58,412 nucleotides of DNA, from the NCBI RefSeq assembly GCF_900141705.1, contig NZ_FQYM01000021.1, positions 1-58,412 on the forward strand, written 5' to 3'. Position 1 is the first letter of the stretch. Every line of letters starts with the position of its first letter. Positions 21,184-27,426 of this stretch are shown one piece after another. The notes under the pieces are model-generated. The model was not told the DNA's origin. It ran no database searches and saw only the letters and a list, made by a program, of their open reading frames with translations. The position numbers and the translations under genes are program-made. The stretch comes from Fibrobacter sp. UWP2 (GTDB taxonomy: Bacteria > Fibrobacterota > Fibrobacteria > Fibrobacterales > Fibrobacteraceae).

Positions 21184-21963
21184 CTAAGGCTTGCGGCCAA
21201 TCACTCCGATGCTCAACTGGGTGTAATGCATTACCGACACAGACTTGAGCGCATCCAAAATAGCGTCCTTCGCCTTTTGATACGTCGAGCCCTGCAGCGG
21301 GTACTTGGGCAATTCCACGCCCACTTTGAAACCGAACTCGCGAGCCATTCTATAGAACAGGTTCGGTCGCATCCAGTCCCCGTAGGCGTACTCGCACACA
21401 AAGCCAGCATCGGCCATGAGCTTTTTGAGCTGCGGCATCGTGAACTGCTTTTCCCAGCCCGCAAACCACTTGTCCATGGCAATCAAAATGTGTTTGATCA
21501 CTGTGTACGGGTGGACAGTCTGCGGCACATCGCAAAGGCAGCAGCCCCCGTGCTTCAAAATTCGGTAATTCTCCTGGATCAGCGGGAGCGAATCCTTGAA
21601 GTGTTCCGCCAGGCCCTGGTGGAACACCAAGTCAAACGTACAGTCGGGGAACGGCGACTTGAACGCGTCTCCGCGCACCAGTTTCAAATTATCGTAAAGG
21701 TTTTCCTTGGCACGCAGAGCGTCCACAATCTTCAAACTGTTCTCGGCAAAATCCAGCACATAGACATCGGCACCCAAGCGGGCCAATTCGGCACTGTCAC
21801 GGCCGGTACCGGCGCCAACTTCCAAAATTTTTAGACCATTAAGCTTGAAATTCTTTTTGATAGCTTCCAAAACAGAGGGAGACGAAGGGTAAACCTTGTC
21901 CATGTCGTTCTTTCTCTGCCAAAAACGATTCCAAACAGATTGATCAGGCTCTTTAATAGACAT
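21184..21963 (-). CDS. Class I SAM-dependent methyltransferase
   Basis: The 259-residue protein has the SAM-binding fold: motif I ILEVGAGTGRDSAELARLG, acidic residue after VYVLDFAENS, then VRGDAFKSPFPDCTFDLVFH and EHFKDSLPLIQENYRILKHGG. The acceptor is unknown; the fold matches methyltransferases of small molecules, lipids or glycans. The ATG at 21963 is chosen over a TTG three codons upstream; no clear ribosome-binding site is seen. It heads the operon that continues with the flippase-like, helicase-acyltransferase and murI genes. Confidence 0.85.
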   Translation of the reverse strand: MSIKEPDQSVWNRFWQRKNDMDKVYPSSPSVLEAIKKNFKLNGLKILEVGAGTGRDSAELARLGADVYVLDFAENSLKIVDALRAKENLYDNLKLVRGDAFKSPFPDCTFDLVFHQGLAEHFKDSLPLIQENYRILKHGGCCLCDVPQTVHPYTVIKHILIAMDKWFAGWEKQFTMPQLKKLMADAGFVCEYAYGDWMRPNLFYRMAREFGFKVGVELPKYPLQGSTYQKAKDAILDALKSVSVMHYTQLSIGVIGRKP

Positions 21964-22068
21964 AACGCGCAAAAATATACGAAAAATCTTTACAAATCAT
22001 TGTCTTGTAACGATATAAATATAGGGCGCGGGTCGGAAATCGCACCCGGTCAAAAATTACTAATTTCA

Positions 22069-22123
22069 TGACAATAGTCACAAATACGTGACAAAGCAAG
22101 ATTTTTTTTCTATTTTTCATGAC
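22069..22123 (+). promoter_or_regulatory. Possible enhancer sites upstream of a sigma-54-type promoter
   Basis: TGACAATAGTCA (22069-22080) is a TGAC-N4-GTCA inverted repeat; further TGACAAA copies lie at 22089 and 22120. They lie about 75-130 bases upstream of the sigma-54-type promoter, a usual place for activator sites. The assignment is inference from spacing and symmetry. Confidence 0.35.
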
Positions 22124-22197
22124 AAATACACCGAAGCGGACGCCGAAATCGACAAAAACAGCCCCCATTAATATGATTATGGCAAAATTTTACACTT

Positions 22198-22214
22198 TTG
22201 GCACGCAACTTGCT
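22198..22214 (+). promoter_or_regulatory. Sigma-54-type promoter of the sigma-70 factor gene
   Basis: TTGGCACGCAACTTGCT matches the sigma-54 consensus TGGCACG-N4-TTGCW in every defined base, with GG at 22200-22201 and GC at 22212-22213, eleven apart. Transcription would start near 22225, giving a leader of about 27 bases before the ATG at 22252 that retains AAGGA. Its exactness and position make chance unlikely; rpoN is not in this window. Confidence 0.8.
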
Positions 22215-22251
22215 TATAAAAAAAGCGATATTTAAGGTGCAAGGAATTACA

Positions 22252-23064
22252 ATGCATATTGACTCTACCGATACCACACTCAAGCGTTACCTAGAAGATA
22301 TTAGACGTACTGCACCGCTTTCCCGTGAAGAAGAGCAGATTCTCTTTAAAAAGGCCAAAGAAGGTGACCGAATTGCACGTAAGAAGTTGATTTCAGCCAA
22401 CATGCGTTTTGTGCTCAAAGTCGCCATCCAGTATCGCGGCTGTCCCATCCCGCTGCCGGACCTGGTGAGCGAAGGCGCCATGGGCCTAGTGCGCGCCATC
22501 GAATCCTTTGAATACGACCGTGGCCTCAAGTTCATCAGCTACGGCGTGTGGTGGATCAAGGCTTACATTACCCGTGCCATCAACGAGCAGGGCAACCTCA
22601 TTCGCTTGCCGGCAAACCAACACCTCCGCGTGCGTAAGGCTTTGCACGAACAGTCCCGCGGTAAAGAAATCAACGAAGAAATCCGCGAGCTCATCCAAAT
22701 TGGCCAGCGCGGCGTCTCGTTCGACAGCCCCCTCAAGGCCGACTCCAAGGCGACCTACGCCGAAGTGCTCCCCGATACCGCGGCATCGAACCCCGAAGCC
22801 GATTCCGAAATCCAGAGCGTCGAGGCCTTGGCCCGCGACTTGATGGAGCAGCTCCCCGAACGCGAAGCGAAGGTCATCACGGGCATCTTCGGCATCAATC
22901 AGGAAGCCCCGCAAACATTGCGCGAGGTGGGCGAATCCATGAACATCTCCCACGAACGCGTGCGCCAGTTGCGTGACCAGGCCCTGCGCCGCATCCGCAA
23001 GTACAACAGCAAGGAATTCCTCCAAGAGAAAAAAGACGCGTTTTTGGCAGCTATCAATAAGTAG
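22252..23064 (+). CDS. RpoD-type RNA polymerase sigma factor without region 1.1
   Basis: The 270-residue protein starts at region 1.2 (DTTLKRYLEDIRRTAPLSRE) and contains the region 2 core (NMRFVLKVAIQYRG, LPDLVSEGAMGLVRAIESFE, KFISYGVWWIKAYI) and region 3. It ends with the region 4.2 helix-turn-helix (TLREVGESMNISHERVRQLR). The short form without region 1.1 is like the primary sigma factor of Bacteroidota, but could also be a group 2 factor; the window does not decide which. The ATG at 22252 has AAGGA seven bases upstream; an alternative ATG 54 bases earlier overlaps the promoter and is rejected. A bidirectional terminator and GC-rich hairpins follow. Confidence 0.9.
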   Translation: MHIDSTDTTLKRYLEDIRRTAPLSREEEQILFKKAKEGDRIARKKLISANMRFVLKVAIQYRGCPIPLPDLVSEGAMGLVRAIESFEYDRGLKFISYGVWWIKAYITRAINEQGNLIRLPANQHLRVRKALHEQSRGKEINEEIRELIQIGQRGVSFDSPLKADSKATYAEVLPDTAASNPEADSEIQSVEALARDLMEQLPEREAKVITGIFGINQEAPQTLREVGESMNISHERVRQLRDQALRRIRKYNSKEFLQEKKDAFLAAINK

Positions 23065-23256: not shown

Positions 23257-26200
23257 TTACTTCTTGTGCTTCTTGCGGCGGACGCCCCACTTGTCCTTAA
23301 TTTCTTCCTCGATCTTCTTCTTTTCGTAGCGGACCACCATCTTGAACTGGACGTTATACACGCCCGAGCCCACAAAGCGGCCGGTATGGTCCTTGAAGTT
23401 CCAGTTCACAAACACCTTCTGGTCGGTGCTCAAGCAGTTGCCACCGAACTTCGGGCTGTTACACGGCACCATGATGGTCGTGTCGTTCACATACTGTCCC
23501 AAGTGATCGTAGTAATTAACCACGAAGGTGATGTAGACCTTAGACGGATCCAGGGAATCGAGCACGGACGGGTCTACTGTACCATCGGCCGAAATCTGGG
23601 CACGGTCCAAAAGCTGCGGCACAAAGCGTTCGCCCAACTGCACCAACTGACCCAGGGCACCTTCCTTTTCAAGGTCCTCCTTGGTCGTGGAACTCGGCAC
23701 GTAGCGCAGGTTCACAGAGCTTATCGTCTGCAGCTTCTCGCCGTCTTCGCTCACCACACGGTCATCATGAACATCGAACGAACCCATCTTAGTGGCCTCG
23801 ACCAGGTGGTTCAGCAAGCCCGCGATGACCACAGCCTGCGGGTTCTCGCCTGCCACGTTGCCGTAGTTGTCGCGAATATTGTCCTTAAGACCGCGCACCA
23901 CCATCAAGGAGTCGCCAGGCAAAATCGTCGAGACGCTACCGTCAATTATCAGTTTTGCCGACTTGCCGTCCTGGGCCCAGTCAATCCTGCTCGGCAAAAG
24001 ATCAATGGTGTCCTTGCCATGGATGTACGAGAAAAAGTCCCTTCCTTCCAGGTTCTTGTACACAATCGGTTCAGAGAACACGACCGTCAAGGTGTCCGCC
24101 TTTTTGCCGTAATCCAAGGTAGCAGCGGCAATCACAGGCGACATCTTGTCGACCAGCGGCACATTCTCCTCGTTCACAAAAGTCTGGCCCAGCACCGGGT
24201 AGTAGGTAAAGACCGTCGCCTGCGGCAGGTCTTCGCTAATGCTGGTCACGCCCGAAACAATCTGCGACGTGGCAAACACATTCCAAGAAACACTCGTCGA
24301 ATCTTCAGAAAGCGCCAGGTCTCCAGGCTGTGCCTGCATCTGGATCAGCATACCGCGGTCACTGTACCACGGGAAGGTCATGTAGAGCATCCCCGCCTGT
24401 TCCGGAGTGAGCTTTCCATTAAAGTTGGTCACAATCTTGTCGAGCTTGCCATCGCCGTCGGTATCCCAGTATTCCACATTCTTGGACGAGGGCAGACGAT
24501 CCGTCACCTTGATGGGCACTTCACGGTCGTACTCGTCCGAGGTCAGGTACGGCGTGCTATTAAAGGTCACATTGGGGAACAACGAGACGCTGTCCTTCAT
24601 TTCACCCTTGAGTCCCAGGGAGTCACCCACCAAAATCACAACGTTCTTGGTCGGCAGGTACACATTGGAGATTTGTCCCACAAAGCCAAAGCGCTTGGAA
24701 TTCTGTTTGATCATCACAAGCATCTCGGGCTCCGAGAGGTCCGCCGGAATAATGTCGATGTTGAATTCAACGAACAAGGAATCCTTACCCTTGCTATTTC
24801 GAATGGCCTCGGCCGCCTTGATTATCTGGCTACCAACCTCAGAGATCGAAGCATTACGCGTGTAAAGAACGTCGTCGGAGTTGGCGTAGGTGATAATCGC
24901 ATAGGCATCCTTCGGGAAATCTTCCGGCAAATTCAAGTCCGACACATCCAGCGAAATCGTATTCACGCGCTTGGTCTCGTAAGAGTTCGCCTGGACCGTG
25001 GCGAAATTGACTGTCGGCACTGCGGCCGCAGTCATGGTGTCCCCGTTAACCACAAGAGCCACGGAGCGTACACTCAAGCCATGTTCCAAAGTATCCTTGA
25101 GCACGATTTCCACGTAATCCAGTTTTTCGTCGCCATCGGAATCCTTGATGAATCCCTTGTCGGCATCCGGAATCGGATCGTAGAAGTTAATGTTGTCGAT
25201 AATGACCACCTTGCCGTCGTGCGCCACAATAATGGAACCACCTCGGATGGCCTCCTCGGCGGTCACCCAAATAGTCACGTCACCATTGTTCTTGACGTTC
25301 ATGGTGTCTGTCGGCTGCGGGTTGTTCGGATCAATCAAAACGAGATCGTAACTCGTGGCGAACGTGAGCGAATCCGCTGTGGTGCCAAAGATTTCAGCAA
25401 TCTTGGCAGAGTCCAGCGTAATGGCAACCAACTGTCCCACCTGCGCCGAGTCGATATTGGAATTATAGCGCAAGTCAAGCTGGATTCCCGTGGGGTTATT
25501 TTCCACCAAGTAGGTGTTCTCGCCAATGGTCACCGTACCCGGCGTTCCCTTGGCCGTATCCACAGGGATCAGCACTGTCGTGGTAGACACTATATCGTCA
25601 CCATCGTCGAACTTGTCTTGAGACGGGTAGAAGTCAAGACCGCCGCTACTACTCAAATCAAAGTCCGTAAAGCCGGCATAGCGATTCGACGAACTGGAGC
25701 CGCCCACGATATCGATACCCGAACCCTGGTTCTTGCTCGAAGACGACGTGGAACCGCCACCACTCGAAGAAGACCCGTTAGAGCCGCTGGAGCCGTTATT
25801 GGCGCTCGACGTTCCCGTACCGCTACTAGAGTTGCCAGTACTGCCGCTGGAGCCCACTGTACTCGAAGAAGTCGTGCTTCCGGAGCTCGTCACCGAGCCG
25901 CTCGAATTCACCGTCCCGGAGGAACTGCTGCCAGTCGTAGAAGAAGTGCCCCCCGAAGAGCTGCTCGTTTTGGAACTGGAAGAATACACAATCAAGGAAC
26001 TGCTGGAGCTCTTGATGCTGCTGGAAGACTTGACACTAGAACTGGACTTGACGCTGCTGCTGGATTTTACACTGCTACTAGAAGAGTATTCCACCAGCGA
26101 GGAACTTACCCCACTACTGCTGGAGAGTTCACCGTCCTCGCCCGTTTCGGCTCCCGTCCTAATGACGCCCGCACCCGAAAGCGGAGCCAAGTCATCGAGA

Positions 26201-27426
26201 TAGTTGTCGATCCACTGCAAGTGCACCAAGACATTATCGTTAATATACTTGTTCACATTGGCGGCATAGTCCACAAACACCAGGTGGCCCGTGTTGCTCG
26301 CCACAAACAGGTGGCCCATGCCATCGACCGTTCCCTGGTCCAAGCGCCAGCCCACATAGCCGCCGTCGTTTGTTCTGGGGAGCGTCAAATTGTCTAGGGA
26401 TTCATTGAAGAACCAATCACGCAGGTCAATGTAGGCGACCACACGCGCCTTCATTTCCCCGTTCTCGACACGCGGCTGGATTTGCACGATTCTCGCACCG
26501 CCGAACACAAAAATGGTCTTGGAGTACGGGTCATAGGTACCACCATGGGCACCTTCCAGGGAATCAATCAGTATTTTAGTTTTAAACTTCGTGATGACAG
26601 AATCGCCAATTTTGCCACCAACCGTAGACTGGTTCCCGGCAGTCACCTTGGTCCACACGGTATCGGTGATATAGCCAAAATACGCAGTCGCCCTTTGCTC
26701 CTTTTTGCGTTCTTCGGAACAGGCCGCACCAGTGTTCGCATTCGATTCACAACCGCCACCACTATAGCTGGAATACGTAAAGAAGGCGTTTCCATCAGCA
26801 TCCCAAATCAAAGTCGAAAGAGAATGGTGTTTAACACGGTCATTTTCATTCGGCTCCAGGAGCACCTGGTAACTGGGGCCAAAATTCTTGTTCTCCGGAT
26901 CATCCGCAGTCGAAATACGGCGCAAATGACCTGGAATACCTGCCGCCCAAAGCCATTTTTGGTTCGGGTCCATCATCAAATGCCAAATACCGTTATCGGA
27001 ATGGTCAGTTTCCACCGTTTTCACCAAGCAGGCGCCCCTCCCACCCGTTTTTTTAGCGGTCTTGCTAATTTTGTGGGCAAAACGTCCTTGGGCCGCAATC
27101 AACAAGTCACCATCGGGATGGTGCACAATACCGTCGGCACCAGACATGCCGTCTTCTTTACCACAAAGCGTATCCTTTTGCAGCAACTGCAAATAACCCG
27201 CGCCATCGTAATAATACTTAAGGCTCTTAACGGCATCCTTGTCGTAGCCAGCATACTTGGTATAATACAGAGTCGCCCTGGTATCGGCATGCGGGACAAT
27301 GTCGCCCACCTGCTGAACCCAAATACCGGTAGCCGGGTTATCGGGAGGCGGCATAGTCCCAGCGCCCGCTGAGCTTATTCCGCACAACACCGCAAACATC
27401 GAGATTATTTTTGCCATCTTTTTCAT
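23257..27426 (-). CDS. Giant secreted surface protein: beta-propeller, poly-Ser linker, DGDG/Ig-like modules
   Basis: The 1389-residue protein has a signal peptide (1-21). Residues 30-420 look like a beta-propeller of the SMP-30/NHL kind: DGIVHHPDGDLLIAAQG, HLMMDPNQKWLWAAGIPG, GAHGGTYDPYSKTIFVFGG and DGMGHLFVASNTGHLVFVDY are spaced like blades. About 430-585 is a serine-rich linker with patches of SSSS broken by K, G and T. The rest holds repeats of the form D-x-DGD-x-x-D-x-V (DSDGDEKLDYVEIVLKD, DTDGDGKLDKIVTNFNG) and Ig-like units (DTLTVVFSEPIVYKNLEG), ending in a FlgD-like strand (GRFVGSGVYNVQFKMVV) and a basic tail. GAGG precedes the ATG. The role is unknown; the layout suits adhesion or sensing at the cell surface. 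Its smaller paralogue lies directly upstream. Confidence 0.72.
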   Translation of the reverse strand: MKKMAKIISMFAVLCGISSAGAGTMPPPDNPATGIWVQQVGDIVPHADTRATLYYTKYAGYDKDAVKSLKYYYDGAGYLQLLQKDTLCGKEDGMSGADGIVHHPDGDLLIAAQGRFAHKISKTAKKTGGRGACLVKTVETDHSDNGIWHLMMDPNQKWLWAAGIPGHLRRISTADDPENKNFGPSYQVLLEPNENDRVKHHSLSTLIWDADGNAFFTYSSYSGGGCESNANTGAACSEERKKEQRATAYFGYITDTVWTKVTAGNQSTVGGKIGDSVITKFKTKILIDSLEGAHGGTYDPYSKTIFVFGGARIVQIQPRVENGEMKARVVAYIDLRDWFFNESLDNLTLPRTNDGGYVGWRLDQGTVDGMGHLFVASNTGHLVFVDYAANVNKYINDNVLVHLQWIDNYLDDLAPLSGAGVIRTGAETGEDGELSSSSGVSSSLVEYSSSSSVKSSSSVKSSSSVKSSSSIKSSSSSLIVYSSSSKTSSSSGGTSSTTGSSSSGTVNSSGSVTSSGSTTSSSTVGSSGSTGNSSSGTGTSSANNGSSGSNGSSSSGGGSTSSSSKNQGSGIDIVGGSSSSNRYAGFTDFDLSSSGGLDFYPSQDKFDDGDDIVSTTTVLIPVDTAKGTPGTVTIGENTYLVENNPTGIQLDLRYNSNIDSAQVGQLVAITLDSAKIAEIFGTTADSLTFATSYDLVLIDPNNPQPTDTMNVKNNGDVTIWVTAEEAIRGGSIIVAHDGKVVIIDNINFYDPIPDADKGFIKDSDGDEKLDYVEIVLKDTLEHGLSVRSVALVVNGDTMTAAAVPTVNFATVQANSYETKRVNTISLDVSDLNLPEDFPKDAYAIITYANSDDVLYTRNASISEVGSQIIKAAEAIRNSKGKDSLFVEFNIDIIPADLSEPEMLVMIKQNSKRFGFVGQISNVYLPTKNVVILVGDSLGLKGEMKDSVSLFPNVTFNSTPYLTSDEYDREVPIKVTDRLPSSKNVEYWDTDGDGKLDKIVTNFNGKLTPEQAGMLYMTFPWYSDRGMLIQMQAQPGDLALSEDSTSVSWNVFATSQIVSGVTSISEDLPQATVFTYYPVLGQTFVNEENVPLVDKMSPVIAAATLDYGKKADTLTVVFSEPIVYKNLEGRDFFSYIHGKDTIDLLPSRIDWAQDGKSAKLIIDGSVSTILPGDSLMVVRGLKDNIRDNYGNVAGENPQAVVIAGLLNHLVEATKMGSFDVHDDRVVSEDGEKLQTISSVNLRYVPSSTTKEDLEKEGALGQLVQLGERFVPQLLDRAQISADGTVDPSVLDSLDPSKVYITFVVNYYDHLGQYVNDTTIMVPCNSPKFGGNCLSTDQKVFVNWNFKDHTGRFVGSGVYNVQFKMVVRYEKKKIEEEIKDKWGVRRKKHKK

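Follow-up and report, generated by a model that had tools for sequence, protein, structure and literature searches.

The window analysed here is contig 21 of the 3.23 Mb genome of Fibrobacter sp. UWP2 at its full length of 58,412 nucleotides. It encodes a 270-amino-acid sigma-70-family factor, hereafter sigma A, with Pfam matches to Sigma70_r1_2, r2, r3 and r4, regions 2 and 4 both being present. A divergent methyltransferase-like gene, named by inspection only, lies on the other side of the intergenic space that holds the putative sigma-54 region (Table 1), and the order of neighbours around the two genes is similar in one sister genus. Convergent to sigma A, the reverse strand (23257–27426) encodes a large protein that looks secreted and has long linkers rich in serine.

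Table 1. Features at the sigma A locus (window coordinates) and the other two full-size sigma-70 factors of the genome (contig coordinates)
Feature	Position	Strand	Basis
Divergent methyltransferase-like gene	21184..21972	-	ORF list; named by inspection only
TGACA half-site (= TGAC of TGAC-N4-GTCA, 22069-22080)	22069..22073	+	direct reading; enrichment, ~10-bp phasing
Dyad TAGTCAC-N6-GTGACAA, candidate activator site	22075..22094	+	genome-unique; orthologue counts
TGACA half-site, 31 bases from that at 22089	22120..22124	+	direct reading; enrichment, phasing
TTTTACAC immediately 5' of the -24 element	22188..22195	+	position profile; kept in most, not all, orthologues
-24/-12 sigma-54 promoter element TTGGCACGCAACTTGCT	22198..22214	+	direct reading; 60/60 genus orthologues; PWM
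Predicted transcript start, 12 bases past the -12 C	22225	+	inferred from -24/-12 geometry
Shine-Dalgarno-like AAGGAA before ATG 22252	22241..22246	+	direct reading; AAGG kept in orthologues
Sigma A, 270-aa sigma-70-family factor (regions 1.2, 2, partial 3, 4)	22252..23064	+	Pfam
B, full-size sigma-70 factor	C6:57226-58068		
C, full-size sigma-70 factor	C11, about 32.6-33.5 kb		

The first-pass annotation had read a full sigma-54 consensus at the right spacing before this gene, and closer inspection bears this out: TTGGCACG-N4-TTGCT constitutes a full -24/-12 element, with the GG (22200–22201) and GC (22212–22213) exact and correctly spaced. Its estimate of 27 bases from transcript start to ATG holds as well, the geometry placing the predicted start at about 22225 and AAGGAA preceding the ATG. 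TTGGCAYRN4TTGCT stands 52–56 bases before the ATG in all 60 of the 60 genus orthologues whose upstream DNA was read. Across 39 non-redundant upstream regions (mutual identity below 80%) TTGGCA and TTGCT show no substitution at any base; mean conservation is 0.95 in the element core versus 0.49 over positions -130 to -16, the DNA further upstream having drifted while the element stays fixed. The variants seen within it (TGGCACG, CACA, CATG, CATA) are of the kind that sigma-54 sites tolerate. The neighbouring TTTTACAC is missing in three lineages (those of L066, L078 and L113), all of which retain the -24/-12 element.

Other sites of this kind are found elsewhere in the genome, as the annotation had proposed to check. 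Pattern searches with TTGGCAYRN4TTGCW give 12 matches genome-wide, the reversed control just 1. Of these 12, 11 fall some 27–125 bases 5' of a start codon; within the window alone a looser pattern yields 3 matches against 1.66 expected, which is not significant. Downstream lie groES, dnaK, htpG, a ClpB-like gene, spoVG, the P-II gene, gltB and glutamine synthetase III, along with a few further genes, the families having been confirmed on N-terminal fragments, with a weak match for ClpB. Full elements precede each of groES and the ClpB-like gene (both on contig C1), htpG (C9) and dnaK (C36), and by eye GTTTCA-N3-TGAAAC-like repeats lie upstream of both groES and dnaK, which suggests a sigma-54 heat-shock or stress circuit over the chaperone genes. 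P-II, gltB and glutamine synthetase III are familiar kinds of sigma-54 target; they and dapF have a -24/-12 site, that of dapF being only TGGCACG preceded by G instead of T. Repeats resembling TTTACAT...ATGTAAA, again noted by eye, are common to the gltB, glnB and dapF upstream regions, and together these sites likely form a nitrogen regulon. A further gene, for a small secreted-looking protein, lies directly downstream of a GAF-type activator gene (C1:194–196 kb), and its ATG stands 27 bases after a perfect sigma-54 site; the protein fragment gave no family match.

The machinery to use such sites is encoded. The annotation had named the absence of rpoN as decisive against its reading, and the gene is present (PF04552, E 1.2e-54), as it is in 59 of the 61 genus genomes searched, both misses being incomplete genomes. 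Enhancer-binding proteins, which it had also asked for, are represented by seven strong PF00158 (sigma-54 activator domain) proteins, five of which show on inspection a plausible loop, GAFTGA or a near variant. Degenerate loops, GALVGV and GAFLGA, were seen in the other two, which are possibly unable to activate sigma-54.

Upstream of the element, TGAC-N4-GTCA at 22069–22080 is followed by TGACA words at 22089 and 22120, and the 39 upstream regions contain 76 TGACA/TGTCA words versus 12.8 in dinucleotide shuffles. Their positions cluster near -79, -98, -109, -120 and -128 with a period of about 10 bases (R 0.72 at 10; the sequences being related, the p-value is indicative only). The claim that TGAC words occupy the region where activator sites are expected thus stands in part: they are present, enriched and phased, but the conserved dyad is GTCAC-N6-GTGAC (core 22077–22092) and not TGAC-N4-GTCA. 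This dyad recurs, with half-sites about 20 and about 31 bases apart; GTCAY-N6-RTGAC occurs in 14 of the 39 regions and in none of the shuffles, and the dyad at 22075–22094 is the sole genome match at one mismatch (reversed control 3+3). Enriched, phased words and a genome-unique dyad fit a dedicated activator, for which these would be candidate sites.

Beyond the genus the site can be followed through part of the class. A PWM trained on 10 other sigma-54 sites of the same genome recovers it before sigma A in genera g2–g6 and in genus g12 of family f3 (p mostly 0.0025–0.02; 0.05 for one g12 member), with a weaker match in f3 genus g11, and finds no site before C or any of 15 B genes. In all, the site stands before sigma A in family f3 and, within family f1, in genera g1–g6. 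Searches of g7, g8, g9, f2, f4 and a single g3 genome did not find it; each of these retains sigma A and rpoN. The link between sigma-54 and sigma A can therefore be lost. Co-loss of rpoN with the site was considered and rejected, rpoN being found in the genomes that have sigma A but no such site before it. The simplest reading of this distribution would be an ancestral sigma-54 link with several later losses.

Could the element be something other than what it resembles? Because of the 60/60 conservation and the genome-wide reversed-pattern control we reject a chance match as its origin, and on these comparisons the -24/-12 element before sigma A is beyond chance. That the likeness is accidental, or part of another element such as a sigma-70 promoter built on TTTACA, strikes us as extremely improbable. 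The upstream TTTACAC is also well conserved and resembles a -35, but TTTACA is lost in several lineages in which GG and GC are kept exactly, which removes the sigma-70 version; moreover, there is no fixed -10 at 16–18 bases, and the independently trained PWM recovers the site across genera and not before B or C. Dual control, in which a vegetative promoter of TATATTT type would supply basal sigma A and the sigma-54 promoter an inducible addition, is a more serious contender, to which we give somewhat less than even weight. Of the 39 upstream regions, 19 contain TATATTT, which could be a vegetative -10, versus about 1.7–1.8 in shuffles, and similar boxes lie upstream in several lineages without the sigma-54 site; a second promoter is therefore possible, and sigma-54 may not be the sole one. 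However, this window has only a degenerate CTATTTTT at about 22110, and the position of TATATTT shifts by lineage between -65 and -121, whereas that of the sigma-54 site is fixed. Under dual control the TGACA array may serve either promoter, and the words could instead belong to a regulator of the vegetative one. Such an arrangement is compatible with a working sigma-54 promoter and denies only that it acts alone.

As to the protein itself, sigma A has an orthologue in every genus genome searched (mostly 93–100% identical, lowest full-length 90%), matches proteins from records of Fibrobacter sp. and of F. succinogenes at about 100% identity, and occurs throughout the class Fibrobacteria in a clade found only in that class. 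Its -10-reading helix is altered (WWIKA in place of WWIRQ), as is region 2.2, and region 3 is shortened. It misses the curated cut-offs of the RpoD (161 versus 354 bits, RpoD_Cterm), RpoS (193 versus 379) and RpoH (127 versus 323) equivalogs, and no FliA model appears among the 25 best family models. By these measures sigma A does not count as RpoS, RpoH or FliA; B and C also miss the RpoD equivalog, so the RpoD cut-off does not discriminate. Counting sigma-70 homologues, we find three full-size factors in this genome, A, B and C, besides one divergent 348-residue protein and two short ECF-like proteins. The searches of phylum genomes recovered B, with about 44–57% identity outside the class. 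In other classes there is a canonical factor of x type (WWIRQAILQALAEQSRI), 86–87% identical among four genomes compared and 68–74% identical to two others, which was not found in Fibrobacter; a divergent copy related to it occurs in genus g12 of family f3. A quick tree of A, B, C and x, made with no bootstrap and containing long branches, places A with C (SH-aLRT 92), apart from B and x, and gives sigma A a long stem. We had taken B as primary because it is phylum-wide, and withdrew this when the tree showed the separate x type in other classes. Synteny is indecisive: C lies near gyrB in this genome and x near gyrB in one outgroup genome, a neighbourhood not seen for x in the other outgroup genomes compared. 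In genus g11 of family f3 the sigma A and B genes are about 3 kb apart (G076:C3:85000–92500).

Whether sigma A might itself be the working primary or co-primary sigma of Fibrobacter, the canonical type having been replaced and its supply tied to sigma-54, has to be weighed against this background. No canonical factor was found in the genus, whose full-size factors are A, B and C. Sigma A is universal in the class and the slowest-evolving of the three (72–74% identity to family f3 versus 62% for B), and its codon usage ranks near the top (50/54 of the genes compared), a hint only. On the other side, region 2.2–2.4 is altered (CPIPLPDLVSEGAMGL, WWIKA), region 3 is shortened and the stem branch is long, while B is phylum-wide, keeps WWIRQ and fits RpoD models better (186 versus 161 bits to RpoD_Cterm); nor are we aware of any housekeeping sigma that depends on an activator. 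We regard a primary or co-primary role as unlikely, and the full scenario, in which sigma A replaced the canonical primary sigma and the gene of this housekeeping factor came under an activator-dependent sigma-54 promoter, as distinctly doubtful; if true, it would couple general transcription to an ATP-dependent signal. Sigma A is more likely an alternative sigma than a primary one, and an unusual, class-restricted one.

We therefore return to the sigma-54 promoter before an alternative factor. The element and its conservation, rpoN and the activators, and the conserved upstream words are observed features of these genomes, and they support the sigma-54 to sigma-70 cascade first suggested for this locus. 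In our view this element probably works as a sigma-54 promoter and directly drives transcription of the gene for sigma A, an alternative sigma-70 factor specific to the Fibrobacteria; transcription from the site, the identity of the activator, its signal and the targets of sigma A are what we infer from sequence. In the proposed mechanism, RpoN holoenzyme would wait at 22198–22214 until a signal-responsive AAA+ activator, bound to the TGACA/GTCAC-N6-GTGAC sites about 75–130 bases upstream, opens the promoter. Sigma A would then take RNA polymerase to a promoter set of its own; given the changes in the helix that reads the -10, this set probably has a -10 sequence unlike the vegetative one.

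Fibrobacter are major plant-fibre-degrading gut bacteria, and our literature search found no paper on their sigma-54, sigma factors or promoters. To our knowledge, sigma cascades headed by sigma-54 come from few bacteria. In this case such a cascade would be fixed throughout the genus and could be followed into part of the class, with one control layer (sigma-54) feeding another (sigma-70 type) through the group's most conserved sigma-70 factor. The same genome scan points to sigma-54 control of the main chaperone genes as well, and the locus prompts the question of which sigma factor does the housekeeping in Fibrobacter.

In the flagellar hierarchy of Vibrio, FlrA and sigma-54 act first and FliA follows. 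The putative Fibrobacter circuit likewise has a sigma-54 tier that feeds a second sigma factor, but the family models do not place sigma A with FliA. Closer in design is the Rrp2-RpoN-RpoS cascade of Borrelia burgdorferi (PMC2940757, PMC3037356, PMC4014564): in both, the gene of a sigma-70-family factor is (here putatively) transcribed directly from a sigma-54 promoter that relies on an enhancer-binding protein. Unlike Borrelia RpoS, sigma A belongs to a clade of the class Fibrobacteria only and scores far below the RpoS cut-off, and it appears to have an upstream site array of its own. The consulted part of PMC3162934 names Borrelia and enterobacteria as cases of sigma-54 acting via a second sigma factor; according to it the enterobacterial link from sigma-54 to sigma-32 was without experimental evidence as of 2011, and Fibrobacter does not occur in the paper. 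The enterobacterial and Fibrobacter cases share a proposed stress-related sigma factor under sigma-54; they differ in that sigma A falls far below the RpoH equivalog (127 versus 323 bits), and in that here dnaK, groES, htpG and the ClpB-like gene themselves carry sigma-54 sites.
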